This document shows positions 49,993 through 64,000 of a DNA stretch of 64,000 nt, one piece after another; position 1 is the first letter of the stretch, and each line of letters starts with the position of its first letter. The notes under the pieces were generated by a model that had not been told where the DNA came from, searched no databases, and saw only the letters and a program-made list of their open reading frames with translations. Position numbers and translations under genes: made by a program. The DNA comes from Paracoccus lutimaris (GTDB lineage Bacteria; Pseudomonadota; Alphaproteobacteria; Rhodobacterales; Rhodobacteraceae): assembly GCF_003337565.1 (NCBI RefSeq), contig NZ_QPJL01000004.1:124001-188000 (forward strand), given 5' to 3'.

Positions 49993-51090
49993 ATGTCCAG
50001 CCCGACCGAGACAGCGCCGATCAAGACTGCGCCAACCAAGACTGCGCCACCCGATACCGCCGCGCATCCCTATCGCCGGCTCGTCGCCCGCCGCATCACG
50101 CTGGTGCTGGGGCTGAGCCTGCTTCTCTGTCTCAGCATCGCCGTCGATGTCTCGCTGGGGCCCGCGCGCTATGCCCTGCGCGACGTGGCGGCGACGCTGA
50201 TCTGGCCCGAGGCCGCCGATCTGCAGATGCGGGTGGTGGTCTGGGATATCCGCCTGCCCATGGCGCTGATGGCGGTGACGGTCGGGGGGTGCCTGTCGCT
50301 TGCGGGCGCGCAGATGCAGACCATCCTCGCCAATCCGCTGGCCAGCCCCTTTACCCTTGGCCTGTCGGCGGCAGCCAGTTTCGGCGCGGCGCTGGCCATG
50401 GTTCTGGGCGTGGCGCTGTTTCCCGCCGCGCTGGCGCTGATGGTGCCGATCAATGCCTTCGTCATGGCCATGCTGGCGGCGCTGCTGATCTTTGCGCTGT
50501 CCAGCATGCGCGGCGTCACCGTCGAGACCATCGTGCTATTGGGCATCGCCCTGGTCTTCACCTTCAACGCGGCGCTGGCGCTTTTGCAGTATTTCGCCTC
50601 GGAACAGGCCCTGGCCGCCGTGGTCTTCTGGACCATGGGCAGCCTGACCAAGGCCAGTTGGGACAAGGTCGCCGTCACGGCGGCGATCCTTGTCGTCTGC
50701 ACGCCGCTTTTCGCCCGCCGCGCCTGGGCGCTGACCGCGATCCGGCTGGGCGAGGCGCGCGCCTCGGCCATGGGGGTTCCGGTGCGCCGGCTGCGGCTGG
50801 AAACGCTGGTCCTCGTCTCGGTTCTGGCGGCGATCCCGGTCTCCTTCGTCGGCACCATCGGTTTCATCGGCATTGTCGGGCCGCATATCGCCCGGCTGCT
50901 TCTAGGCGAGGACCAGCGCTTTTTCCTGCCCGGCGCGATCCTGTCGGGCGCCCTGATCCTGTCGGCGACCTCGGTCCTGTCCAAGGCGATCCTGCCCGGC
51001 GCCGTGCTGCCGATCGGCATCATCACCGCGCTGGTGGGGGTGCCGTTTTTCGCCACGCTGATCTTTACCCATGGAAGACGCTCATGGTGA
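49993..51090 (+). CDS. Iron ABC transporter permease (FecCD family)
   Basis: The 365-residue membrane protein has about nine to ten helices with the family motifs GAQMQTILANPLASPFTLGLS and FVGTIGFIGIVGPHIARLLLG. A polar head of about 35 residues rich in Thr and Pro (TETAPIKTAPTKTAP) precedes the first helix and is longer than usual; a later start is possible. It ends by overlapping the ATPase gene by 7 nt. Confidence 0.94.
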   Translation: MSSPTETAPIKTAPTKTAPPDTAAHPYRRLVARRITLVLGLSLLLCLSIAVDVSLGPARYALRDVAATLIWPEAADLQMRVVVWDIRLPMALMAVTVGGCLSLAGAQMQTILANPLASPFTLGLSAAASFGAALAMVLGVALFPAALALMVPINAFVMAMLAALLIFALSSMRGVTVETIVLLGIALVFTFNAALALLQYFASEQALAAVVFWTMGSLTKASWDKVAVTAAILVVCTPLFARRAWALTAIRLGEARASAMGVPVRRLRLETLVLVSVLAAIPVSFVGTIGFIGIVGPHIARLLLGEDQRFFLPGAILSGALILSATSVLSKAILPGAVLPIGIITALVGVPFFATLIFTHGRRSW

Positions 51091-51845
51091 CGCTGGAACT
51101 GGACCGGGTCGAGGCCCGCTATGGCCGCAAGATCATCTATACGGACGCCACCACGCCGGCGATTTCCGGCGGCCATCTGACAGCGCTGATCGGCCCCAAC
51201 GCGGCCGGGAAATCGACGCTGTTTCGCCGTATCGCCGGTCAACTGGCCGGGTCGGGACAGGTGCGCATCACCGGCGCGGACCGCGATGACCTGCGCTACA
51301 TGCCGCAGGATACGGCGATATCGGCGGCGCTCAGCGTCTATGAGGCGGTGATCCTGGCGCTGAAGCAGGGCCGCAGCGGCTGGCGCCTGTCGGCGGGGGA
51401 ACTGGCCGCCGTCGATGCGATCCTGACCCGGCTGAAGATCACCGCGCTGGCCGAGCGGCAACTGGCCGAGCTGTCCGGCGGCCAGCGCCAGTTGATCTCG
51501 ATTGCCCAGACCCTGGTCAGCCGCCCCAGGCTGGTGCTGATGGACGAGCCGACCTCGGCGCTGGATCTTTACCGGCAATACGAGGTGCTGGAACTCTTGC
51601 GCAGCTACGCCGCCGAGACCGGCGCGGTGGTGGTGCTGGCGCTGCATGACCTCAATCAGGTGATGCGCTCCTGCACGACCACCATCGCGGTGGCCGAGGG
51701 CCGCGTGGTCGCGGTCGGCCCCACGCTTGAGGTGCTGTCACCGGCGCTGATCCGACGGCTTTACGCCATCGAATCCCGGGTCGAGACCTGTTCGCGCGGC
51801 TGCCCGATGATGATCGTCGACGGGGCATTGGAACAGGGCACCTGA
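51084..51845 (+). CDS. Iron ABC transporter ATP-binding protein (FecE-like)
   Basis: The 253-residue ATPase has Walker A GPNAAGKSTLFRRIAG, the signature ELSGGQRQLISIAQTL, Walker B LVLMDEPTSALDLYRQYE and the switch His in ALHDLNQV. The ATG at 51084 lies within the end of the permease gene, which couples their translation. It completes the FecBCD-like import system. Confidence 0.94.
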   Translation: MVTLELDRVEARYGRKIIYTDATTPAISGGHLTALIGPNAAGKSTLFRRIAGQLAGSGQVRITGADRDDLRYMPQDTAISAALSVYEAVILALKQGRSGWRLSAGELAAVDAILTRLKITALAERQLAELSGGQRQLISIAQTLVSRPRLVLMDEPTSALDLYRQYEVLELLRSYAAETGAVVVLALHDLNQVMRSCTTTIAVAEGRVVAVGPTLEVLSPALIRRLYAIESRVETCSRGCPMMIVDGALEQGT

Positions 51846-52180
51846 CAGCGCCAACTCAAGTCCACGGCCAGTCGCAATTGTTCCGCAGCGCACCGGAACA
51901 ACGCGCCGCGCCCCTTCGCGTCACGACCTTCGCGGCCGGCCTGTCGACGGCGATATCGGCGAAATGCTGGCAGAACCTCCTCGCAATCGCTGCTGAAATC
52001 AGGCCGCGCAAATCTGCGGAGAGATTCTCAATACCCGCACCGACACCAGAGCGAAAATCAGAAAACCGTTCGGACCGCGCGCATGATCGCATGCATCATT
52101 TGGCATCACGCTGCCTATGTCCCCGCGCACCGCGCGGTGGCCCTGCAACGCGGTGGCCCTGCGGATGACGCGCCCGCCAT
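51846..52180. other. Gene-free stretch between the iron ATPase and cckA
   Basis: These 335 bp lie between two convergent genes. I find no credible gene and no clear terminator. A short tandem GGTGGCCCTGCAACGC / GGTGGCCCTGCGGATG near 52136-52167 is the only structure that stands out. Confidence 0.4.
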
Positions 52181-54283
52181 TCATTCCTTTGGCGTGGATC
52201 GCACCTCGGCAAATTCAAGCTGCCTGCTGACCAGCGCGGTCAGATCCGACAACGAGAACGGCTTGGCCAGGAAGGCTGCCCCGGCGATGGGCTGATGCCC
52301 CTCGGAAAAGACATCCTCGGCATAGCCGGACATGAAGATGACTCTTGTGTCGGGCCGGTCGCGCAACGCGGTTCGTACCCAGGCAGGCCCGTCCATGCCC
52401 GGCATGACGACATCGGTCACGAAGACATCGACCGAAAGCCGCTGATCGGTCAGCAGCGACAACGCATCCTCGGCGCAGGCCGCCTCGAGCACGTTGAAGC
52501 CTTGCAGCTTCAGGGCCCGGCTGGCGAAGGCACGGACCGGCGCTTCGTCTTCGACCAGAAGCACCGTCGCCTCGACATCGCGGCGCACGCGCGGAACGGC
52601 GGTATGCGTCACGACCTCCTCGTCTTCGCGGCGGTCATGGGCCGGAAAGAACATCGAGAAGCAGCTTCCCCGCCCGGGAACACTGTCACAGAAAATATAC
52701 CCGCCAGTCTGCTTGACGATGCCATAAGCTGTCGAAAGGCCAAGGCCGGTGCCCTCGCCCGTCCGTTTCGTCGTGAAGAACGGCTCGAAGATCTTGGCCA
52801 GATCGTCAGGCGCGATGCCACAACCCTGGTCATGCACCTGCACCCGCACATAATCGCCCGCAGGCAGCGTCGCACGCCCGAATGTCGTGCCGGTATCAAA
52901 TCGGATATTGTCGGTCGAAATGGCGATATCACCGCCTTGCGGCATGGCATCACGCGCATTGACGACAAGATTCATGATCACCTGCTCGAACTGCCGGCGA
53001 TCTGCGCGGATCATCCGCAAAGCCGGATCGTGATCGAAGGTCAGCACGATCCGCTCGCCCACGAGCCGGTTCAGCAGATGCGTAAGATCGGACAGCGCAT
53101 CCCTGAGATCCATGATCTGCGGCTTCAGCGTCTGCTTGCGCGAGAAAGCCAGCAATTGGCGCACCAGCGCAGCCGCCCGGTTGGCGTTCTGGCTGATCTG
53201 ATCCAGATCGGCATAGTCGGGATCCGCCTTGTCATGCCGCAGCATGAGCAAGTCGCAATGGCCGGTGATCGCGGTCAACAAGTTGTTGAAATCATGCGCA
53301 ATACCACCCGCCAACTGTCCGATCGCCTGCATCTTCTGGCTTTGCACGAATTGCGCCTCAAGCGTCTTGAGCGCGCTTGCGTCCGAAAGCACGGCAGTCG
53401 CATAGTCACCCTGCCCACGGGTCAGGCTGATCTGGACAAAGCGCTGCACTCCGTCGCCCTTCAGGTAAAGCACTTCCGAGCCGCCGATGGTGCGCCCCGC
53501 GCAAACATCGCCGACCCAATCGCTCAGCTCGCGTCCCAGACCGTCAAGCAACGCCGCAAGGGATTGGCCCGGAACAGCTTTCGCGCCCAGCAACTCGCGG
53601 GCGGCATCATTCGCCCGCATGATGTTCGCCGACGGATCCAGGACCAGAAGCGACACTGGCAGATGATCGAAATCCCCGCCATCTTCCTGAACAGAGGACG
53701 CGGTTGCCGGCGCGGCAATATCGTCATCAGAGATACGCCAGCACTGCACCGTCGAGCCGGCATCGCGGGTGACGTGAAAGGGGCCTTGCGCCCCCAGATC
53801 GACGCGGAACCTGCCATTGCGGCCAAGCGCGATGCCGATGTCATGCCATATCCGCTCGGGCTCGGCATAGCGCCGCGCCAGCAGCTCCTGCACCCGGCGA
53901 CCGGTGACATCACCGATCCGTTCAAGCGCGGCCTCGTTTTGCGCAAGGACAATGCCGTCCGGATCGACCGCGAATGATGGCCCCGAATCGTCCAGAACCC
54001 GCGAAATGACCCGCATCAGATCGCGCCGGACGGCCAGCCCTCGGCGGATCTGCCTGACCGAGATCGCCCCGCCGGTCAGGTACCAGGCCATGGTCGCGCC
54101 GCCCGCCGCCAGCAGCGTCGTACCGCCGCTTGCGCTTTCCGGGCGCAATGCCAGCCAAAGCGCGCCGATCACGACCGGCAGCACCAGAAATGGAACCAGA
54201 AGCTGCGCCGAGCGCAGGATCTCTGCCCGTTCGGATATCATCAGGCCCCTCGCAATCAGTCGTTTCCGGTCGGGATAGCGCAT
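52181..54283 (-). CDS. cckA: Hybrid sensor histidine kinase CckA
   Basis: The 700-residue protein has two N-terminal membrane helices (about residues 27-70), two PAS-like domains and a DHp domain with H330 (AGGIAHDFNNLL). An HATPase domain (NLVVNARDAMPQGG, GEGTGLGLSTAYGIV) and a C-terminal receiver with D624 (FVTDVVMPGMDG) follow. The tail FMSGYAEDVFSEG and LAKPFSLSDLTALV is diagnostic of CckA. In alphaproteobacteria CckA acts through ChpT to control CtrA, which governs cell cycle, motility or gene transfer depending on the genus. An ATG at 54241 is an alternative start with a better ribosome binding site. Confidence 0.96.
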   Translation of the reverse strand: MRYPDRKRLIARGLMISERAEILRSAQLLVPFLVLPVVIGALWLALRPESASGGTTLLAAGGATMAWYLTGGAISVRQIRRGLAVRRDLMRVISRVLDDSGPSFAVDPDGIVLAQNEAALERIGDVTGRRVQELLARRYAEPERIWHDIGIALGRNGRFRVDLGAQGPFHVTRDAGSTVQCWRISDDDIAAPATASSVQEDGGDFDHLPVSLLVLDPSANIMRANDAARELLGAKAVPGQSLAALLDGLGRELSDWVGDVCAGRTIGGSEVLYLKGDGVQRFVQISLTRGQGDYATAVLSDASALKTLEAQFVQSQKMQAIGQLAGGIAHDFNNLLTAITGHCDLLMLRHDKADPDYADLDQISQNANRAAALVRQLLAFSRKQTLKPQIMDLRDALSDLTHLLNRLVGERIVLTFDHDPALRMIRADRRQFEQVIMNLVVNARDAMPQGGDIAISTDNIRFDTGTTFGRATLPAGDYVRVQVHDQGCGIAPDDLAKIFEPFFTTKRTGEGTGLGLSTAYGIVKQTGGYIFCDSVPGRGSCFSMFFPAHDRREDEEVVTHTAVPRVRRDVEATVLLVEDEAPVRAFASRALKLQGFNVLEAACAEDALSLLTDQRLSVDVFVTDVVMPGMDGPAWVRTALRDRPDTRVIFMSGYAEDVFSEGHQPIAGAAFLAKPFSLSDLTALVSRQLEFAEVRSTPKE

Positions 54284-54299
54284 GGCGGTTAAGGACCCG

Positions 54300-55451
54300 T
54301 TAATGACGCTGCATCAGGCAAAGATAAAACCCGTCCGAGGCGTCCAATGGCGTGAAAAGGCGTTCAGTGACCAGTTCGAACTCTGGCGCGCGGTGCAGGA
54401 AGGCGGCTGTCTGCGCCTGATTCTCGACCCGCAAAAGCGAGCAGGTCATATAGGCAAGCCCCCCTCCTGCGGCGACCCGCGCGGCCGCCTCATCAAGGAT
54501 CCGCGCCTGCGTTTCGACCAGCGCCGCCAGTTGCGTCGCGGTCAGCCGCCATTTTGCGTCGGGTGTTCGCCGCCACGTACCGCTGCCCGAGCAAGGCACA
54601 TCCGCCACGACCAGATCGAAACGTCCTGACAGCTTGTCCGGCGGGGTGATCTGCACCCTCACGCCCGCACGCGCCGCCCGCGCGGGCAGGTCGGACATGC
54701 GGCTGACATCGGCATCATGGGCGGTGACCGGAGACAGCCCACGCGCCGCGAGCGCCAATGCCTTGCCACCGCCACCCGCGCAATAGTCCAGCAGACTGCC
54801 GCGGTCGGGCAAGAGGCTGCAGGCCAGTTGCGGGGAAAGATCCTGCATTTCGACCAGCCCGTCGCGATAGGCGCTCGAGGCCGCCAGCCGCCGGGCACCG
54901 GCAGAAACGCAAAGCGCGGTCGGCAAATCGGGATAGGGCGCAGCCGCGATATCCTCGGAAGCCAGGACCGCCACGGCCTGATCCGGCGTCGCGCGCAACT
55001 GATTGGCGCGCAGCCAGACCGGCGCGCGCTTGCGCATGGCCATGGCCACAGGCTCGACCGCTTCGCCCAGGGCTTCGCTCCAGGCCGGCAGGATCCAATC
55101 CGGCAGGTCAAGCGCCGCCGCAGCCTCCGGCGCCCCGCCACGGGCCAGTTCATCGGCCGAGAGCGGCCACGGCGCGTGACCTTCGCCGGTAAAGACGGTT
55201 TGCGGGTCCCTACCCTCGTCACGACACATGCCCAGCATCAGGCCGCGTCCCGTCATCGCACCACCCAATGCCGCGCGCGAACGCAGGCGACGCAAGCTGT
55301 CGAAGACCAGATCGCGCACGGCGGCACGATCCCCCGAGCCGGCAAAGCGGCTGGCGCGCGACCAGCGCAGCAGGGCCTGCTCGGCAGGGTCGCCGCCAAG
55401 GATACGGTCCAGGATCGTGATCGCCGCCTCGATACGGGCTGCTGGGGTCAT
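54300..55451 (-). CDS. RsmB/NOP family SAM-dependent RNA cytosine-5 methyltransferase
   Basis: The 383-residue protein has an N-terminal helical NusB-like region and a catalytic domain. It shows motif I LLDYCAGGGGKALALA, motif IV VADVPCSGSGTWRRTPD and motif VI AYMTCSLLRVEN, each of the latter two with a catalytic cysteine. This is the arrangement of rRNA m5C methyltransferases such as RsmB. The precise target base is unknown. It is upstream of cckA on the same strand, 16 nt away. Confidence 0.9.
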   Translation of the reverse strand: MTPAARIEAAITILDRILGGDPAEQALLRWSRASRFAGSGDRAAVRDLVFDSLRRLRSRAALGGAMTGRGLMLGMCRDEGRDPQTVFTGEGHAPWPLSADELARGGAPEAAAALDLPDWILPAWSEALGEAVEPVAMAMRKRAPVWLRANQLRATPDQAVAVLASEDIAAAPYPDLPTALCVSAGARRLAASSAYRDGLVEMQDLSPQLACSLLPDRGSLLDYCAGGGGKALALAARGLSPVTAHDADVSRMSDLPARAARAGVRVQITPPDKLSGRFDLVVADVPCSGSGTWRRTPDAKWRLTATQLAALVETQARILDEAAARVAAGGGLAYMTCSLLRVENQAQTAAFLHRAPEFELVTERLFTPLDASDGFYLCLMQRH

Positions 55452-55533
55452 GTGGCCTGCGCCCCCGGGCGCTGATGGTCATGGTTTCAGGCCAGAAAGG
55501 CCGCGCCACCCGCTTTGTCAATCCTGTCCCCAT

Positions 55534-56343
55534 TCAGGGCGGTGCGGCCTGCTGCCAGAGCGAGGGCCGTCCGGTTCCGGCATCGGGCGATGCAAGCCGA
55601 ACCGCGACCATCGGCGTCCCGCCCGGTGCCAGCGGCGACCGCCCCGAGGCCAGCACCGCCAGCGATCCGGGCTGGCCCGTGCGCGGGCTGCCCAAGGGCG
55701 CCCCGAGCAGCATCACCCTTTCGCGGACACGCTGCCGCTGGCCGGAATCGATCCCCGCAAAGCTGTTATAGGTTTCGGGCGAACCGCTCAGCCCTTGGAA
55801 ACCGCGTTCGCGCAACATGTCCCGCAACGTGTCGAAGCGCGCCAGATAGCGCTGCGCATGGACTTGCGTGCGCGAGTGGAACGCCCCGGCCGCAATGCGC
55901 CAATCGCCGGTTTCGGTATATAGCTGGCGCACGAACCGCGCCGCGTAGCGGGCGTTCTCCAGAGGGTCAAACATCTGTGCGACGGATGCGAAATTCTCGC
56001 CATGCCAGCGGTAATTCAACTGGAAGCAGCCGATATCCAGGTTGAGGCGACCCTGCGCCACGCGATCCTCGGCAAAGGCGATGGCGGTATCGGGATCGTC
56101 GAACCATGTCCCCTCCCCCTCGGAATTCGCACTCCAGGCCCAGGGGCGGACGACCCCGTCCATGCGCCGTCCGGTTTCGGTCAGGGTCAGCGCACCCAGG
56201 ATATCGACCGGCACACCGCTTTCCTGAGCCGCCTGCTGCGCCGCCCATTCGCAGATCTCGGCCGAGGGCAGCGCCAGCGCAACCGTGCGCAGCAGCAGAA
56301 AGGCCGGGATGGCGACCGACAGAAGAATGAGGCGAGACAGCAT
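55534..56343 (-). CDS. Exported lytic transglycosylase-like protein (SLT domain)
   Basis: The 269-residue protein has a signal peptide (MLSRLILLSVAIPAFLLLRTVALAL). An SLT-type domain follows, with the catalytic glutamate in ILGALTLTETGRR and the later IGCFQLNYRWHG (in place of the usual GxxQ) and PLENARYAARFVRQLY. Such enzymes cut the glycan strand of peptidoglycan, often to let envelope machines pass. In other Rhodobacterales a similar gene sits near flagellar genes, which are absent here. Confidence 0.85.
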   Translation of the reverse strand: MLSRLILLSVAIPAFLLLRTVALALPSAEICEWAAQQAAQESGVPVDILGALTLTETGRRMDGVVRPWAWSANSEGEGTWFDDPDTAIAFAEDRVAQGRLNLDIGCFQLNYRWHGENFASVAQMFDPLENARYAARFVRQLYTETGDWRIAAGAFHSRTQVHAQRYLARFDTLRDMLRERGFQGLSGSPETYNSFAGIDSGQRQRVRERVMLLGAPLGSPRTGQPGSLAVLASGRSPLAPGGTPMVAVRLASPDAGTGRPSLWQQAAPP

Positions 56344-57021
56344 GACAGCCCATGAAATCGGCGTTCAGCATCCTCATAGGCCGATCCGGTTAAGATTCGG
56401 TAAGCCCGTCCCCAAATGCCATTCCAGAGATGCCCGACCATTGCGATCGGGTTTTCGCATGACGCCCCCCTTCACCAAAAAATACCTGATCGATTCACGG
56501 ATTCAACAAAACCAATAACGGTAGCGACCGGCCAACACTTACCCAATAACGTGTGCGGGCAAGCGCCGGGAGGAGAATCTGACGTCATTTACCGTCGCGA
56601 CTCAACGAATTACTCCGGCAGTAGCCAAGAAAATTCATGGCGACCATGATCAATATCCGACGTCTTGGAAATGCGTCAGGAATGCGTCGAAAAATTTCGC
56701 CACGCATGTCAAATCGCAAGCCGTCAATGCGCTCATCCCACAAGGGATCAAAGAGTTAACTGTTTATTTTTATTTGATAAGTACTGAATATGTCGGAAAA
56801 TTTCTCGTGGCGATTTCACATCACAAGAACTCGCCATCCAAGGAATGATCGTTGACAAATTATGCAATACAAATCCGACAATAATGATCTCACATGATGA
56901 ATTCACGATATGAGATACTGTCTGTCTCGCATATCTGATTGCATCCTGCGGCCAAGTTTGTTGACAGGTGCCACCTATGCGCGGATCATTTTCCAGAGAC
57001 TTGTCTGCTGAGGGGGAATAT
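56344..57021. other. AT-rich intergenic region before the large secreted protein
   Basis: This 678-bp gap has no gene I can support. From about 56750 to 56960 its base composition is clearly more AT-rich than the rest of the window, with runs such as TGTTTATTTTTATTTGATAA and a TTGACA at 56851-56856. A minus-strand frame here lacks a good start and codon pattern and overlaps the next gene. The region probably holds the promoter of the next gene and may mark the edge of acquired DNA. Confidence 0.55.
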
Positions 57022-60000
57022 ATGATGGCTCGTAATGCCCTGCTGATCGGCAGCCTTCTGTCGGCATCAATTGCCCTGACCCAACCAGTGCATAGTGACG
57101 AGCTCGGAAGGTTTTTCGGCACGATCGCCGGTGAAATCGTAAGGGACCAAATGCGCCAGCAACAGGTGCAGCCCCGAAGACAGCAGCCCCAGGCGAGCCA
57201 GCCGCAAACGCGTCAGCAAACAGGGGCGCGTCAACAATCCGCAGCCCCTCAGCCGCAGCAGCCGGAAATGAGCCTGGCGGAACGGATGGCCGTGCAGCGC
57301 GCGCTGGCGGCAACGGGCCATTATGCAGGCGGGATCGACGGCATACTCGGCTCGGGCAGCCGGCGGGCCATCGCCGGCTGGCAAGCTTCACTGGGCGCGG
57401 CTGCAACGGGTTATCTGCTGCCTCAGCAGGCCCGCATGCTGATCGCGGCCGCCCCGCCGCCCGATCCGCTTTACGAGATGGCGGCGCCGAATCCAGCCGC
57501 TCGACCCGGCGTGACGCAGGGCTGGGCGGGGAATGCGCCTGTTTCGGCAACTGCGGCCGATGGCCACTATGCGGCACCGATGCTTGCCGGATCCGCGCCG
57601 GCCGCGCCGGCCGCTGAGCCATTGCCGGGCGACGCGCTGATCGGCGACAACGAGTTGGCGCGGCAACTGGTGATCTGGACAATCGCGCAGAACCCCGCGT
57701 TGCTGAACTCCTCGCATGGCCTCGGTGCGCTGATCAGCTTCAACTATGCCCCGGAGATCCAGGCGCAAAGAATCACGGACCCGGCGCTGCGGCGTCAGAT
57801 ACTGACGGCCAAGCTTGCAACCGAGGACAAATCCCCCCCTACTCGCGCCGTGCTCGAACGTTGGGTACAGATCCAGCCCGCCTGGGACGGCGCGCCACCA
57901 AAGATGGCAACCGAGTTTGCGGATATCGAGGGCGTGCCGACGATCACCGCGCTGAACGCCGTTTCGCGCGGCCCGTATGCGCCGTCCGTCTGGTCGCTCG
58001 CTGTCGATCAGCCGTTTTTCCTGCCACCACCCGAAGGTTTTGCCGCCTGGACCATTCCCCCAGAGAGCCGGGACGAGTTGCTCTTGCAGATCGATATCAC
58101 GCTGTCTGACGTGCGGCCGCGCATCGGCTCGGCGGACATCGGCGTCAGAGGCGGCAGCGCCAAGGCTACCATCAACCGTGTCACCCTGATCCGCCGCCCG
58201 CCGCCCGCGCACAACCGAAGCGATCCAAACCCGCCCGACGAGATCCTGCACACATGGACTGGCGAGGCCCCGGCCACGGCAAGTCCCGACCGCCCGGCCG
58301 ATCCGGGTGCCATTGCTGCGGTCTATGGCGGCGCTGTCAGTGGCGGGCGGTATGTGGTTTCGTCGGGGGGCAGCGATATGGGGCTTGATGTCATCCACCA
58401 ACCGCTGCTTGCCGGCGATTGGGGCCGGCTCGACGAGGCCTTGCCGCTGGCCCTGTCGCTGCGTCGGTTGACGGAGGCCGCGCCCGATCGTCAACCGGAC
58501 CCGCAACTGACCGAAATGCTGTCGCAGTATCTGCTGACGGCCCGTGAACGCATTGACCTGCTTCCGGTCGAGATCGCGCAGCGCAACGATTCGACCACGA
58601 TCAGCGAACTTGCCCTGCATGCCGCGATGACGGAAAACGCCGCCGCCGTGCGCGATATCGTCGTCACCCGTGCGCCCGACCTGCCGCTGGCCATGCGCCA
58701 TGTCGGGTATGCCTCGCTGGGTGAATACGACTTCACCGCGAATGCCTTTCCGGTCTCGGTCGACCCCTCGTTGTTGCAGCGGCTGCCGCTGGCCAAGCCG
58801 GGACCGGACATGAGCCTCGACGCGCTGCTGCCGATCGCACCGACCGACGCGCAGGCGCTGCTTGACACCATGGCGCAGATAAATCCCGACGGCGGACAGA
58901 ACCGGCAACTTTTCTCGGTGGTCGATTACGTGCTTGAAGAGATGGTGCCGCGCGGCGCCCGCCCGGGTCCGATCACGCAGGCCGAACTGGAGGCGCTGTC
59001 CCCGCGCAGCCGGATCGAAAGCGTGGCCCTGTTTATCGATCCCGGCCTGACGCAGAAGCTGATGGATCTGCCCATCCCCGAGGACCCTGCACATGCCGTC
59101 GCTGCGGCGGAAGGTGTCGAAGGTCCGCCAGAGGAGATTTACGCCACGACCGGAAAGAGCCTTTGGGGGGCCTTCGCGCGCGCCGATGTGAAGGACGAAT
59201 GGTCAAGCAGCTATATCATGAGCATGCAGCAGGTTTATCGCGGAGGCGATGCCGGCCTTGAGGCCCGTACCGAGGCGATGCGCAACGAAATGATCGCCGA
59301 GGCGCGTAACAGCTATTGGATCGGCGCCCATCTTGATGTCGGCGAATACGACCCGAACACGGGAAGCGTTCCGTTGACCGGCTACACCCTGGTTCCCGTG
59401 CCTTATGACAATGACATTTCGGGCGTCGCGCCACCACCGTTGCAGCCACGGGACAGCCGCGATTTCGCGGCGTTGCAGGTCACGGCCGAGGAGGCGGCCA
59501 AGATCGACCAGCTTCGCGAGTCCCGCACCCGGATTGCCGCCTATCTGCTGATCCGGCCGGACGAAGTCGTCTTCGATGACGAAAACCATGCGCCGTTCCT
59601 GACCTTCGCGCGCCCCGAGGCCGTGCTGCTTGGGCCCGCCGGCAGCGACGGCATGCCCGATCCGGTCATCCTGCGCATCGGCATGCTGGAGCCACCCCGG
59701 CTTGATGCCGCCATCACGGCTGCGGAAGGCGGGGCCGCTTCCCCGGTGACTGCTGCGCCAGAGGCGCTGTTTCTGGATCAGGAAGGGGTGGATCTGCTTG
59801 CGCTGTCGCTGGATCCGGCCGTCTATGGCGACAGCGGCTGGCAACGCATGCTGATCCAGCGGCTGGTAAAGGAGCGCTGGTTCGCGCTTGAGGGCGAGGC
59901 GCTGCGCGGCGACCTGCCCTGGGGCAACTTCTTCGCCAATCCGCAACTGACGCCGCAGGCCGACGAGGTGGCCGCGTTGCTGCCCGCCTTCCGTGACTGG

Positions 60001-61287
60001 ACGATGGCACGCGCCGCCGCCCTGCCACAGGATCTGCTGCTGCCCCACGGGCCGGTCCCCCAGAACAGCCCCCAATGCGGCATGATCCTCGATGTGACCG
60101 GACCGGGATCCGAGGCCGATATCCGCTTCATCCTGAGCGATGCGGCATCGCTGCTGGGCGACGCGCTGCCGCTTCCCGAAAATGTGCCCGTCGGATACAG
60201 CAACGTCGCTCGCGCCGGCAGCCATCAGGTCTGGGCCTTCGATTCGGCGCCGCCTCACAGCAATTGCAGCTATCCGCGCGGGGTCGATGGCGCTGAACTG
60301 GGCGACTTGATCGCGGCGGATCCCGACAGTACATCCGCGCTTGTCCATGTTGCGGCCGTGCCGACCCTGGGCACTGCCGGCGAAGGCGTATTGAGCCAGT
60401 TGCTGCGGCTGAAGATCTCGGAGCTGCGATTGGCACCGGCCGAGGGCGCGGACAACATCCCTGCCGGTCTTCGTGCCGTTGTCATCGTCGCGACATCGGT
60501 CGAGAGCGTGACCGGCTATCGGCACGGCAGGAACAATAGCGGCTTCGAGGAGGTGGTGACGCTCACGCCACAGGACTGGGCCACACCGGTCGCACAGACC
60601 CTGGCGTCCGAGGATGTGGTCGGCCTCACCATCGGGATGACGCTTGCCGATTTCGAGACCGCGGCGCGCGCACATCTGGGAAAGGCGGTTCTGTTTCGCG
60701 AGGAAACGCCCGGCAAGGGCATGTTCGGACATGCCAGGGGGCTGCTGAACCTTGAAACCGGCGAGGCTCTGGCCGCCGTTTACGCGCCCCATGCCGAAGG
60801 CCAGCCGGTCGTCGCGATCATGCGCCGCCTGAGCCTTCCCGCCAGCAAGGCAAGCACCGAAGCGGTGAAACAGGGCCTGATCCAGAAATACGGCGCATTG
60901 TCGCGCGAGATTGACGACGGTTTCTGGCTGTGGGGAACCCTGCCCGATAACGAGGACGGATGGGGCGTCTGCGGCGGCCCCTCACTTCTGGGCAGTTCAG
61001 GACGCGAGCGCGCGCCCGAGCTGGTGCCGACCGAAGATCTGGGACAGCCTGTCGGCACCTATCAGAACAGCCCGGCCTACTGGTACGATGCCGGCTGGCC
61101 CGACATCGTGACGGACCGTCCGGGTCAGGTCGATCCGTCGCGCTGCGGCCCGGTGGTCGGCGCGATGGTCGCCGATAGCGGCGCGGCTGGGCGGATGCTG
61201 CAGCTCTGGCTGCTGGACCGCAAGCTGGCGGGCGAATTCGACGCCCTGCCCAAGCCCGCCGTCGAGGCCGCCGATATCAAGTTCTGA
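57022..61287 (+). CDS. Large secreted protein with peptidoglycan-binding domain (unknown function)
   Basis: I do not recognise the family beyond its front end. The 1421-residue protein has a signal peptide (MMARNALLIGSLLSASIALT, cut near VHS), a Gln/Pro-rich linker (residues about 45-80) and a PG_binding_1-like domain at about 84-143 (RALAATGHYAGGIDGILGSG). A roughly 1270-residue remainder lacks repeats or further membrane helices. Cysteines are few and late. Around residues 730-870 the sequence resembles DUF4852-like proteins, but weakly. The ATG at 57022 follows AGGGGGAA. It may be a periplasmic structural or inhibitor-like protein; I cannot assign a role. Confidence 0.75.
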   Translation: MMARNALLIGSLLSASIALTQPVHSDELGRFFGTIAGEIVRDQMRQQQVQPRRQQPQASQPQTRQQTGARQQSAAPQPQQPEMSLAERMAVQRALAATGHYAGGIDGILGSGSRRAIAGWQASLGAAATGYLLPQQARMLIAAAPPPDPLYEMAAPNPAARPGVTQGWAGNAPVSATAADGHYAAPMLAGSAPAAPAAEPLPGDALIGDNELARQLVIWTIAQNPALLNSSHGLGALISFNYAPEIQAQRITDPALRRQILTAKLATEDKSPPTRAVLERWVQIQPAWDGAPPKMATEFADIEGVPTITALNAVSRGPYAPSVWSLAVDQPFFLPPPEGFAAWTIPPESRDELLLQIDITLSDVRPRIGSADIGVRGGSAKATINRVTLIRRPPPAHNRSDPNPPDEILHTWTGEAPATASPDRPADPGAIAAVYGGAVSGGRYVVSSGGSDMGLDVIHQPLLAGDWGRLDEALPLALSLRRLTEAAPDRQPDPQLTEMLSQYLLTARERIDLLPVEIAQRNDSTTISELALHAAMTENAAAVRDIVVTRAPDLPLAMRHVGYASLGEYDFTANAFPVSVDPSLLQRLPLAKPGPDMSLDALLPIAPTDAQALLDTMAQINPDGGQNRQLFSVVDYVLEEMVPRGARPGPITQAELEALSPRSRIESVALFIDPGLTQKLMDLPIPEDPAHAVAAAEGVEGPPEEIYATTGKSLWGAFARADVKDEWSSSYIMSMQQVYRGGDAGLEARTEAMRNEMIAEARNSYWIGAHLDVGEYDPNTGSVPLTGYTLVPVPYDNDISGVAPPPLQPRDSRDFAALQVTAEEAAKIDQLRESRTRIAAYLLIRPDEVVFDDENHAPFLTFARPEAVLLGPAGSDGMPDPVILRIGMLEPPRLDAAITAAEGGAASPVTAAPEALFLDQEGVDLLALSLDPAVYGDSGWQRMLIQRLVKERWFALEGEALRGDLPWGNFFANPQLTPQADEVAALLPAFRDWTMARAAALPQDLLLPHGPVPQNSPQCGMILDVTGPGSEADIRFILSDAASLLGDALPLPENVPVGYSNVARAGSHQVWAFDSAPPHSNCSYPRGVDGAELGDLIAADPDSTSALVHVAAVPTLGTAGEGVLSQLLRLKISELRLAPAEGADNIPAGLRAVVIVATSVESVTGYRHGRNNSGFEEVVTLTPQDWATPVAQTLASEDVVGLTIGMTLADFETAARAHLGKAVLFREETPGKGMFGHARGLLNLETGEALAAVYAPHAEGQPVVAIMRRLSLPASKASTEAVKQGLIQKYGALSREIDDGFWLWGTLPDNEDGWGVCGGPSLLGSSGRERAPELVPTEDLGQPVGTYQNSPAYWYDAGWPDIVTDRPGQVDPSRCGPVVGAMVADSGAAGRMLQLWLLDRKLAGEFDALPKPAVEAADIKF

Positions 61288-61314
61288 CATCAAGCTCTGA
61301 CATCAGCTTCTGGG
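61276..61314 (+). repeat. 13-bp tandem repeat over the stop codon of the large secreted protein
   Basis: ATCAAGTTCTGAC, ATCAAGCTCTGAC and ATCAGCTTCTGGG follow each other directly. The first copy carries the stop codon (61285-61287). The unit is 13 bp, so gain or loss of copies after the stop does not change the protein, but it shows slippage in this spot. Confidence 0.8.
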
Positions 61315-61462
61315 GCAGCATGCCCCGGAACTGCCGCCGCCCCTGCCCCCAAGGGCGCGGGCAGGCGCTCTGCATCGCCGCCCATGCCCGATGGCCCGAA
61401 CCGGGTCCGCCCCGGACGCGCGCGCGCCCCGAGGGGGTCGGCCTGCGGGATCGATACGCCGC

Positions 61463-61786
61463 CTATTGTTCGGGCTCTTTCAGGCGGTCAAGCTGATCCT
61501 GCAACCAGAGCCGCCTTCCGTACCATTTCCCGCGCCTCTGCGCCTCCTGGAACTGCGGAGATTGATCCAGCGCCAGCCCCTGCAGCCATCCCAGTTCCAG
61601 CAGCACGAGATGATCCTGATCGGACATGCCGATCAGGCTGTCGGCGACCGGAAAGAAGTGGTCGAAATACCGTCCGCGCGGCTCGGCCAGGGGGCCTTCG
61701 CCGGCAAATGCCTGCCGCAGTTTCCGGCTTGCACGGCGTGCGTGGCGATCCTGAATCGCCGCGATATCCTGTTGCGAGAGGATCAT
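61463..61786 (-). CDS. Small soluble protein co-translated with the lipase-like gene
   Basis: I do not recognise this 107-residue protein (MILSQQDIAAIQDRHARRAS...). It is charged, mostly helical by composition, and has no signal peptide or membrane helix. Its ATG overlaps the stop of the lipase-like gene by four bases (ATGA, 61783-61786), so the two are made together. By position it could be an immunity or adaptor partner of a secreted lipase. Known immunity proteins of phospholipase effectors are usually periplasmic, which argues against simple immunity. Confidence 0.7.
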   Translation of the reverse strand: MILSQQDIAAIQDRHARRASRKLRQAFAGEGPLAEPRGRYFDHFFPVADSLIGMSDQDHLVLLELGWLQGLALDQSPQFQEAQRRGKWYGRRLWLQDQLDRLKEPEQ

Positions 61787-63330
61787 TGATACAGCTCGCA
61801 GGACCCGAGAACCTCGGCCATGCGGCCACGCACCCAATCGATGACCACGCGCGCGCGGATGGCGGCCTCGTGCTCATAGCCGGGATGGTGAACGGCACGC
61901 CGTTTGCCCGAGATGCGCAGCGTCGAGGCACTGATAGGCACGGTGCGATCGCCCGAGCCGACCGGCGCCGCGATGGTCCAGTCGGTCCCCAGACCCAGAT
62001 AGCCGCCATCGATATGCTTGTCGCCCTCATTGCCCCAGACGACATGCTCGCGGCGATAGTTGGGCGTCGCGCCCTCCTTGATCGTGATATTGGATTCCTT
62101 GACGCTGCGCCCGAGGCTTCCCCCGGTCATGTCCGGGCGCCAGCTGATGAAGTCATAGGTCTTCATCCCCGGATCGGCGCTGTGGCACATATAGGTCAAC
62201 TCGTGAAAGTCGCCCGCCGAATAGATCCGGTCGTGCCACGCCTCGGCCACCTGGTTGTGGCGCAGGAATTCGTCGAACGGATCGCCTTTCGGAAGCGCCT
62301 CGGGAAACAGCCAGTCCGGATTGGCGGCCCGGTACATCTTGTCCTTCTTGCGGTAGATCTCGGTATAGGGGTTGGCCTTGGGCAGATGCAGATAGCCGGC
62401 CCCGCCCGAGATCGCGTTCCCGACCAGATTGCGCGCGGGGTTCAGGATGTGCAGCCATTGCCGCGAGCTGTCATTGGCCCGGTACCGCTTGTTGGGCAAA
62501 AGCTCCTGCGCGCCGGGCATATGTCCCAAAAGCGCCGTCACCAGCGAACCCTGGCGGCCCAGCACGACATAGCTGCCAAGCTCGGCGCCGATGCCCGGGT
62601 TCTCGAACCCGAAGTGAAAGCGCTTGTAGGCGGCCGGCGCGCCGTCCGTTGGCATGACGGTGCTGATGACCGCAAGAATGTCGCCCGCCGCGCCATGCAT
62701 CAGCGCCGCCGAGCGGGCGACAAAGCCGCCCATGGAATGGGTCACCAAAATCGCGCCCGGGCATTGCGCATCATTGGCCGCGGCCCATTTCCGCGCCTCG
62801 GCGACCCAGGTCTTGATATGCGCGGCCGCCGCCTTTCCGGAATCGTAGTTCGAGGCGGACCAGTTATACCCGCAGGCATAGACCGGCATTCGCACCAGAT
62901 TGAACTGCGGGTTGTGCTTGCGCACCTCATGGGTCAGCCGGGCGGGAAAGCTGCTTTCCATGTCGCGCAGGATCGGCCCGTAAGAGGACAGCGACACCGA
63001 GCTCCAGTTCCGCGACACCTGCGCGGCCGTCAGCCCCGCGACGGGGGCAAACTCGACGGGTTTCAGAAAATTCTTGTCGAAACGATTGCCGACAAGCAGC
63101 GCTTTCCTTTTCGCTGCAGCCGCCCGCACGTTCGAGCGCTCGCGGGTGCGAAACAGGTCGGGGCCGGGAACGGATCCCGCGTTCAACGCATAGTGCCGGA
63201 TCATCAGCCCCTTGCTGTCGGGGTCCCAGACGATCTGGTTGCCGGATTTCAGACGCGACCCCATGATCCCCGGCAACAGGATGACCGGGACGATCACATC
63301 GGCGGGGCAGACCGCGGTTCCGCCGGCCAT
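61783..63330 (-). CDS. Lipase-like alpha/beta hydrolase (PGAP1/LCAT type)
   Basis: The 515-residue protein starts VIVPVILLPGIMGSRLKSGN, the oxyanion-side motif of LCAT/PGAP1-type lipases. It has the nucleophile elbow VTHSMGGFVAR with S199; D461 in GDRTVPISAS and H487 in YEHEAAIR complete a plausible triad. There is no signal peptide, as in type VI lipase effectors, and a VgrG occurs elsewhere in the window. The ribosome binding site GGAGG is inside the end of the upstream gene, whose stop is 1 nt away. Substrate (phospholipid or neutral lipid) is unknown. Confidence 0.85.
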   Translation of the reverse strand: MAGGTAVCPADVIVPVILLPGIMGSRLKSGNQIVWDPDSKGLMIRHYALNAGSVPGPDLFRTRERSNVRAAAAKRKALLVGNRFDKNFLKPVEFAPVAGLTAAQVSRNWSSVSLSSYGPILRDMESSFPARLTHEVRKHNPQFNLVRMPVYACGYNWSASNYDSGKAAAAHIKTWVAEARKWAAANDAQCPGAILVTHSMGGFVARSAALMHGAAGDILAVISTVMPTDGAPAAYKRFHFGFENPGIGAELGSYVVLGRQGSLVTALLGHMPGAQELLPNKRYRANDSSRQWLHILNPARNLVGNAISGGAGYLHLPKANPYTEIYRKKDKMYRAANPDWLFPEALPKGDPFDEFLRHNQVAEAWHDRIYSAGDFHELTYMCHSADPGMKTYDFISWRPDMTGGSLGRSVKESNITIKEGATPNYRREHVVWGNEGDKHIDGGYLGLGTDWTIAAPVGSGDRTVPISASTLRISGKRRAVHHPGYEHEAAIRARVVIDWVRGRMAEVLGSCELYQ

Positions 63331-63331
63331 C

Positions 63332-64000
63332 TCAGCGCCTCCTGCTGATCGAGGTCAGCAGCCCGAGGGCGCGGCCTTCGGCGTCGGCCTCTGGTTCGGC
63401 TGCGTTGACGAACTTCAAATGCGCCGAGGTCAGCGTCGCGCCCGGCGAGGAGGTCAGCGTCGCGCCCGGCGAGCTTCCGACCGGCCAGAAGACCGTGGCG
63501 TCAAACCAGGTTTGCACGTCGTCGCCCTCGCGCAGCGTCACCCGCGAAAAACCGGCATCGGCGCCGTCGACCTTCAATGTGCTGTTCTCGACCTTGACCC
63601 CCGGCACATCCGCAATATCGTTCGGCTTGACCAGAGGCCGGTCGTCACCGCCCTGATCGGCGGGCCCGATGATGAAGTACAGCTGATAGTTGTTCGAGGC
63701 GGCGGCATCCGCCTCGGCCTGGCCGGTTTCCTCGGCCCGAACGGCAGAGGCCGAGAACATCGCCTCGGCGTCAGGACCCGCCTGATCAAAATACGCGGTT
63801 TCAAAAAACAGCCCGTCAAAGACAAAACCCATGGCCCTGGCATTCGGGCCGACCGGCGCAACCCTTGTCAGGCTGTGAAACAGCCATTTCTCCGCGTCGT
63901 CGCCCTTGGGAAAATCGGTCCGCGACATGGAATCGCGCGTCATGACGACATCGTTGCCGACACGGTACAAGCCCAGCACAAGATAGGTATAGCTGGACAC
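63332..64000 (-). CDS. Hypothetical protein upstream of the lipase-like gene (start may lie outside)
   Basis: I do not recognise this protein. The visible 222 codons begin at a GTG on the last base of the window, so the true start may be beyond it. It has an N-terminal part with LVLGLYRVGNDVVMTRDSMS and later YQLYFIIGPADQGGDDRPL, and no signal peptide is visible. Near the C-terminus an 8-residue unit (SSPGATLT) is repeated exactly. It is followed after 1 nt by the lipase-like gene, and the three minus-strand genes form one operon. A loading-adaptor role is possible by position only. Confidence 0.65.
   Translation of the reverse strand: MSSYTYLVLGLYRVGNDVVMTRDSMSRTDFPKGDDAEKWLFHSLTRVAPVGPNARAMGFVFDGLFFETAYFDQAGPDAEAMFSASAVRAEETGQAEADAAASNNYQLYFIIGPADQGGDDRPLVKPNDIADVPGVKVENSTLKVDGADAGFSRVTLREGDDVQTWFDATVFWPVGSSPGATLTSSPGATLTSAHLKFVNAAEPEADAEGRALGLLTSISRRR
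63426..63473 (-). repeat. 24-bp exact tandem duplication inside a coding region
   Basis: Two identical 24-bp units (63426-63449 and 63450-63473) encode SSPGATLT twice in frame. The exact identity suggests a recent duplication. It lies near the C-terminus of the hypothetical protein at 63332. Confidence 0.9.

Follow-up and report, generated by a model that had tools for sequence, protein, structure and literature searches.

The window (the whole 64,000-nucleotide stretch of Paracoccus lutimaris DNA analysed here) contains a forward-strand gene that starts from an ATG and encodes a protein of 1421 residues, apparently exported through the Sec pathway. The gene, the segments of its product and the features on either side of it are collected in Table 1.

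Table 1. Features at and around the gene, in window coordinates.
Feature	Coordinates	Strand	Basis
Divergent neighbour, 269 aa, SLT/lysozyme-fold-like (below Pfam cut-off); separate from the finding	55534..56343	-	
AT-rich intergenic gap, 678 bp, 47.2% GC	56344..57021		Composition
Promoter-like TTGACA-17-GATCAT, 10/12	56961..56989	+	Weak: 2 found vs 0.9 expected (shuffles)
CDS, exported modular protein, 1421 aa	57022..61287	+	ORF and homologues at 48-50% identity
Probable signal peptide, residues 1-25	57022..57096	+	By eye
PG_binding_1 domain, residues 87-132	57280..57417	+	Pfam E 3.7e-6, above cut-off
Repeat module 1, residues ~473-683, helices and beta-beta-alpha-beta-beta, carries LGEYDF..FP	58438..59070	+	Low-confidence model and weak self-comparison
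Repeat module 2, residues ~704-871	59131..59634	+	Low-confidence model and weak self-comparison
C-terminal domain (D-V-x-G-L..GM ... KYG ... W ... C ... CGP), residues ~1195-1405	60604..61236	+	Alignments, profile matches, predicted fold
C-terminal tail ADIKF-COOH (hydrophobic-charged-[LF])	61270..61284	+	Alignment and ORF ends
Convergent locus: 107 aa, PGAP1-like lipase (61783-63330), 327 aa running past window end	61463..64000	-	

The gene and its product

Immediately 5′ of the ATG lies GAGGGGG, which resembles a ribosome-binding site, and homologues are 48-50% identical to the protein across most of its length, so that a spurious reading frame is implausible. We conclude that the gene is real and no artefact, as the first-pass annotation had held; the span given there began at 56344 and included the gap, while the reading frame itself begins at the ATG.

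The same annotation had described a stretch of far lower GC ahead of the gene, and this stands: the gap compares with 65.3% GC in the window and is the lowest of its non-overlapping 678-bp windows. GC and codon use had been put forward as a check for transfer. The coding region is normal (66.3% GC, GC3 77%) and matches its neighbours; composition was accordingly set aside as evidence for transfer. The upstream stretches of other family members also dip a little below their genes in GC, none of the 12 being as low as this gap. A mobile-element remnant, an RNA gene and a tRNA site were considered for the gap and dropped, because searches came back empty for Rfam families (no match at the gathering threshold over 50000-64000), tRNAs (none across the window), repeats (none telling in 55300-57100) and similar plasmid DNA. 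Blastn of the gap against the loci compared gave chance-level matches only.

An exported protein with a single small peptidoglycan-binding domain, as first described, is borne out. By eye, the N-terminus resembles a Sec-type signal peptide without a lipobox (MMARNALLIGSLLSASIALTQPVHS, with cleavage before DE). PG_binding_1 (PF01471; 27.5 bits against a cut-off of 23) is all that Pfam returns for the protein at E ≤ 1; at that level there is no match to LprI (PF07007), none to DUF4852 (PF16144) either here or elsewhere in the genome, and none among the PADLOC anti-phage profiles (0 families). NCBIfam gives only the spore protein SleB (E 0.02, 14.8 bits against 236.5) and HxsA, far under cut-off, and both fall on the peptidoglycan-binding stretch. 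Sequence searches of the PDB likewise matched this stretch, for example to the lytic transglycosylase SltB3 (5anz). Two other PDB matches were taken as chance: the photosystem II 12 kDa protein (8iwh; phmmer E 0.0084, residues 1026-1150), because it is absent from the profile search at E ≤ 1, and FAM155A, which the profile search placed on a Gln-rich linker. Outside the peptidoglycan-binding stretch no catalytic family was matched in the protein or in 12 aligned members, and profiles detect no peptidoglycan hydrolase domain in the protein, a result that very distant folds could escape.

The protein is acidic (computed pI 4.7) and has cysteines at 1019, 1082, 1317 and 1375. All four are invariant across the 7 members of one alignment (A2), and Cys1317 and Cys1375 are invariant in all 12 members of a second (A3). 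From its sequence the protein is predicted to be periplasmic, wall-bound and disulfide-bonded, and the name of its N-terminal domain implies that it would bind peptidoglycan.

Structure prediction, proposed by the first-pass annotation as a way into the remainder, yielded two models and no clear fold for either, although the lack of a match does not make a fold new. The C-terminal model (residues 1171-1421; pLDDT 70, pTM 0.76) consists of an alpha segment, four strands, a second alpha segment and more strands, with low confidence over its final residues. Its VIA neighbours are headed by the secretory SCP-type proteins 4ifa (Z 5.5 over 112 residues, rmsd 4.0) and 4h0a (Z 5.3), YpeB (5boi, 5.1), BamC (4.9) and BLIP (up to 4.8); these top Z values (4.8-5.5) differ by less than 1 and all lie under the tool's telling level. 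The best Foldseek E for this model is 0.26, and neither model has a Foldseek match at E ≤ 0.001. The long model is poor (pLDDT 50.7, pTM 0.34); it shows two units of helix plus beta-beta-alpha-beta-beta, and VIA finds no Z above 4.2 for it. Because the model is poor, the Hcp-type proteins that top its Foldseek list (E ≥ 0.046, TM ~0.2, rmsd 14-20 for the first three) were treated as noise. In a profile self-comparison residues ~562-614 resemble ~769-829, weakly (hhalign probability ~31%).

Relatives, neighbours and descent of the family

With residues 201-1421 as the query, matches, some of them partial, were found in 10 of 125 Paracoccus genomes, 2 of 295 genomes of the family and 2 of 385 of the class, the genome studied here being counted. 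A scan of contigs with the single protein as query gave no relatives; with the alignment as query it gave at least four loci, among them two Salipiger genomes. A plasmid of Pseudooceanicola algae also carries a relative, annotated as a hypothetical protein. The first-pass annotation had said that most of the protein matches no family. Profile searches indeed assign nothing beyond PG_binding_1, and the protein is assignable to no known family; it is nevertheless not unique, since the search for homologues brought up relatives, and we conclude that it is a member of an undescribed, modular and patchily distributed family. Broken copies occur in two Paracoccus genomes, G787 (L045:8358-11800) and, as a weaker relative, G731 (L090:6153-7097), which implies that the gene is dispensable there.

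The N-termini vary between members. PG_binding_1 is present in 9 of the 12 aligned members, and LprI in 3, two of them above cut-off. An alternative N-terminal module, with the motif DRxNSxG...QILxQ[DE]RANxHRFG (read by eye), was found by tblastn at 7 loci; three of these additionally contain a PG_binding-type stretch, recognised by Pfam in L048 and by eye in L089 and L091. Three relatives match DUF4852 weakly (E 0.0014-0.12; 12.9-19.1 bits against a cut-off of 22.8). In genome G170, an 830-residue PG_binding_1 protein with GDGND-type repeats (by eye) is encoded near a family member (L096:8360-10852). A literature search on DUF4852, on LprI in Paracoccus and on Paracoccus with DUF4123 returned no paper.

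Gene neighbourhoods were compared across 41 loci and the window, or 39 distinct loci once the window (the same as L050), L051 (equal to L023) and L052 (equal to L043) are left out; some of the 39, at least L026, L092 and L115, are truncated close to where the gene begins. At 8 of the 39 (G051, G026, the two Salipiger loci, G745, G199, G761 and G748) a gene for an M15-type peptidase stands directly upstream on the same strand. It accompanies all 7 loci with the alternative N-terminal module and, among the others, only G199; the remaining 31 distinct loci have none, and there is none beside the window copy. Three of the 8 paired proteins were scanned with Pfam, and these match M15_4 (E 2.9e-21 to 6.6e-20). 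In G051, G026, both Salipiger loci and G761 the called genes are no more than 25 bp apart or share a single base; in the remaining three pairs the distance from the end of the M15 match to the family frame, or to its start, is no more than ~15 bp.

Apart from M15, no neighbour (as blastp clusters) keeps the same relative position in three or more loci. Sharing is otherwise limited to sets of two or three loci, except for a group of 10 genes that are not consistently placed. One gene pair lies downstream of the family member in two loci (L047:6154-8281 in G748, L091:10306-12426 in G745). In G336 (L049:27-6605) the relative is ~1 kb from genes on its own strand, one for a trypsin-like peptidase (E 1.2e-12) and two large reading frames that by eye resemble conflict-type NTPase systems.

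At the window locus itself, the gene had been described as lying beside a lipase-like operon. The two are adjacent, but they are convergent and on opposite strands, so that there is no shared transcription unit, and among the loci compared the lipase locus adjoins the family gene in the present genome only. The 515-residue PGAP1-like lipase scores 24.4 bits against a cut-off of 24.3. The locus continues beyond the window to ~65077 (L050: 13380-14078), where a DUF4123 protein (E 3.6e-22) also matches Tla1, the chaperone of Tle1, below cut-off. By sequence the locus resembles a lipase effector of a type VI system together with its adaptor, an arrangement that PMC13133936 describes for Tle1, and the 107-residue protein is a possible immunity protein. 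A functional tie to our gene is unsupported, the family genes at the other loci compared having no such locus beside them; we regard it as ordinary and separate from the finding.

A tree was built from 39 C-terminal domains, L095, L118, L103, L119 and one L090 piece having been dropped beforehand; it is midpoint-rooted, with weak deep forks and several long branches flagged. The G051 protein, which has the alternative N-terminal module and the M15 neighbour, groups with the peptidoglycan-binding clade of the window protein (support 98/96). One and the same body is thus joined to both kinds of wall-related N-terminal part, and these parts therefore seem interchangeable. The Paracoccus copy in G026 is nested within the Salipiger copies (99/84).

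For synteny, the flanks of the SLT-like gene were compared in 8 relatives, and none of them contains a match to our gene. The order cckA-like, rsmB-like, SLT-like is kept in three of the 8 (G011, G004 and G009), followed there by genes identified by eye as guaB and a mur/fts cluster. In the genome studied here guaB lies inside another contig (G000:C5:178230-179675) with different neighbours. The order is therefore split in this genome, which places our gene at a breakpoint by the AT-rich gap. Patchy occurrence, nesting in the tree and the chromosomal breakpoint, rather than composition, suggest that the gene was acquired by horizontal transfer.

The C-terminal domain and its tail

A profile built on the final ~230 residues reached further than the longer query. 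Counting the present genome each time, the domain occurs in 18 of 125 genomes of the genus, 14 of 295 of the family and, at E ≤ 1e-4, 8 of 385 of the class, several matches being weak (E near 1e-4). The reading frames that carry it are 272-1702 residues long (pieces of broken genes left out) and are elsewhere mostly unlike each other. Pfam returns only scattered matches to single members (E 0.12-0.2). We conclude that these ~230 residues are an undescribed alphaproteobacterial domain found on otherwise different proteins. Five short proteins, from frames of 286-315 residues, contain hardly anything besides the domain (L104:3572-4435, L070:1102-1965, L072:1324-2190, L073:1054-2001 and L088:1147-2007); four end in the strict tail described below, whereas the last residues of L070 are MNL.

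At the very C-terminus, 34 of the 44 matched reading frames end in the strict tail [IVLM][KRDE][LF], and 38 do so if F, P or A is also allowed in third-last place. The six without the looser tail are L095, L118, L119, L103, L070 and one upstream piece of the broken G731 gene. Among the other genes called in these loci the tail ends 1 of 171, and 1 of 311 in a larger, overlapping set. The 44 include the 12 rows from which the profile was built, and the profile itself covers the tail columns. Nor are all rows independent: G002/G728 and G783/G279 are near-identical pairs, and the Salipiger rows are close to one another. Nevertheless, several distant proteins keep the tail though their profile match ended near positions 110-130, far before it, which speaks against such a bias. 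At the DNA level, a narrow pattern for the tail gave 22 matches in 13 genomes against 15 for a reversed-pattern control, several of the former ending in TGG rather than a stop; in the present genome its sole match is our gene.

Possible roles at the cell wall

Our leading, still tentative reading, to which we give a probability of roughly 0.4, is that the protein is horizontally exchanged, is anchored to the wall and acts there as a partner or regulator of peptidoglycan hydrolases. It is drawn from the PG_binding_1 domain, the LprI-bearing relatives, the M15 adjacency, the invariant cysteines and the lack of any catalytic family, and also from the many architectures that share the C-terminal domain, the tail in 34 of 44 frames and the weak likeness to YpeB, SCP-type proteins and BLIP. 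Against it stand the missing M15 gene beside the window copy and at 31 of the 39 distinct loci, the sporadic recurrence of all other neighbours, the lack of an LprI or DUF4852 match in the window protein, the weak fold matches, a wall-binding role that is read from a domain name, and the two broken copies. As we picture it, the protein would be exported by Sec and held on the peptidoglycan by its N-terminal domain, and would then pair functionally with a peptidoglycan hydrolase, as the M15-adjacent sister proteins and the LprI relatives hint. Its repeated alpha/beta body and cysteine-paired C-terminal domain would bind and position wall hydrolases, or restrain them, while the hydrophobic-charged-Leu/Phe tail might dock in the pocket of a partner such as a PDZ-type envelope protease or chaperone. 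The PDZ-type pocket is a guess prompted by the properties of DegS/DegP-type proteins.

Several known systems resemble parts of this picture. According to PMC7933661, the periplasmic LprI-domain protein ScwA controls murein hydrolase levels, has two disulfides and looks horizontally acquired. ScwA/LprI regulators are comparable in that some relatives carry LprI and the cysteines are conserved, but unlike ScwA the window protein has no LprI match and runs to ~1400 residues. The spore lytic enzyme SleB needs YpeB for stable incorporation, as described in PMC6660665, and its partner YpeB is likewise exported and tied to a wall hydrolase. At Z 5.1 (5boi; 126 residues, rmsd 5.1) the likeness to the C-terminal domain of YpeB is too weak to argue kinship. 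YpeB is a PepSY-domain protein, whereas ours has no sequence match to it, is alphaproteobacterial and far larger and, unlike the YpeB/SleB pair, bears the peptidoglycan-binding domain itself. With PG_binding_1 proteins such as SltB3 (5anz) it shares an N-terminal wall-binding domain, but in place of a recognised hydrolase domain it has more than 1200 residues of undescribed domains. DUF4852 recalls the YDF-motif modules of the relatives, three of which match it weakly, but all matches lie below the curated cut-off and none is in the window protein.

The accessory character of the family would also fit a secreted or surface protein of antagonism, adhesion or conflict that is swapped between strains, with an N-terminus that merely anchors it. 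Its patchiness (10 of 125 Paracoccus genomes, our own included), cross-genus transfer, broken copies and modular N-termini agree with this, as do the adjoining type VI-like lipase locus and the trypsin-like peptidase gene near the G336 relative. Yet no toxin, protease or adhesin domain was matched, the type VI-like locus is absent from the other loci compared, and M15 is the only neighbour to recur consistently in more than two loci; we therefore regard such a role as unlikely. The LprI domain in 3 of 12 members, the weak fold likeness to the inhibitor BLIP and, again, the accessory distribution might instead indicate a wall-bound shield that inhibits exogenous lysozymes or wall-cutting effectors. 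This we hold to be quite improbable, given that the window protein has no LprI match, that the fold match is weak and that ScwA is reported in PMC7933661 to control hydrolase levels and to have no role in lysozyme resistance. Similarly improbable is a purely structural role, as a periplasmic spacer or scaffold that serves no particular enzyme: great length, repeated modules, acidity (pI 4.7) and the absence of a catalytic signature would suit one, but the conserved C-terminal domain, the tail and the M15 pairing in sister groups argue for specific partners.

Returning to the hydrolase partner or regulator, the very large exported protein probably sits on the cell wall and may steer wall-cutting enzymes. 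The M15 pairing and the LprI relatives provide a testable link to the control of such enzymes. The domain, which recurs on many proteins across Alphaproteobacteria, usually with its three-residue ending and without a match in Pfam, points to an unknown periplasmic interaction, and the tail is a concrete handle for learning what the protein does. More speculatively, and in our view doubtfully, domain and tail together could serve the alphaproteobacterial envelope as a docking or sorting module of a kind not yet recognised, through which many unlike proteins would connect to a single conserved machine such as a PDZ-type protease or chaperone. If true, such a module would let species freely exchange accessory wall proteins.
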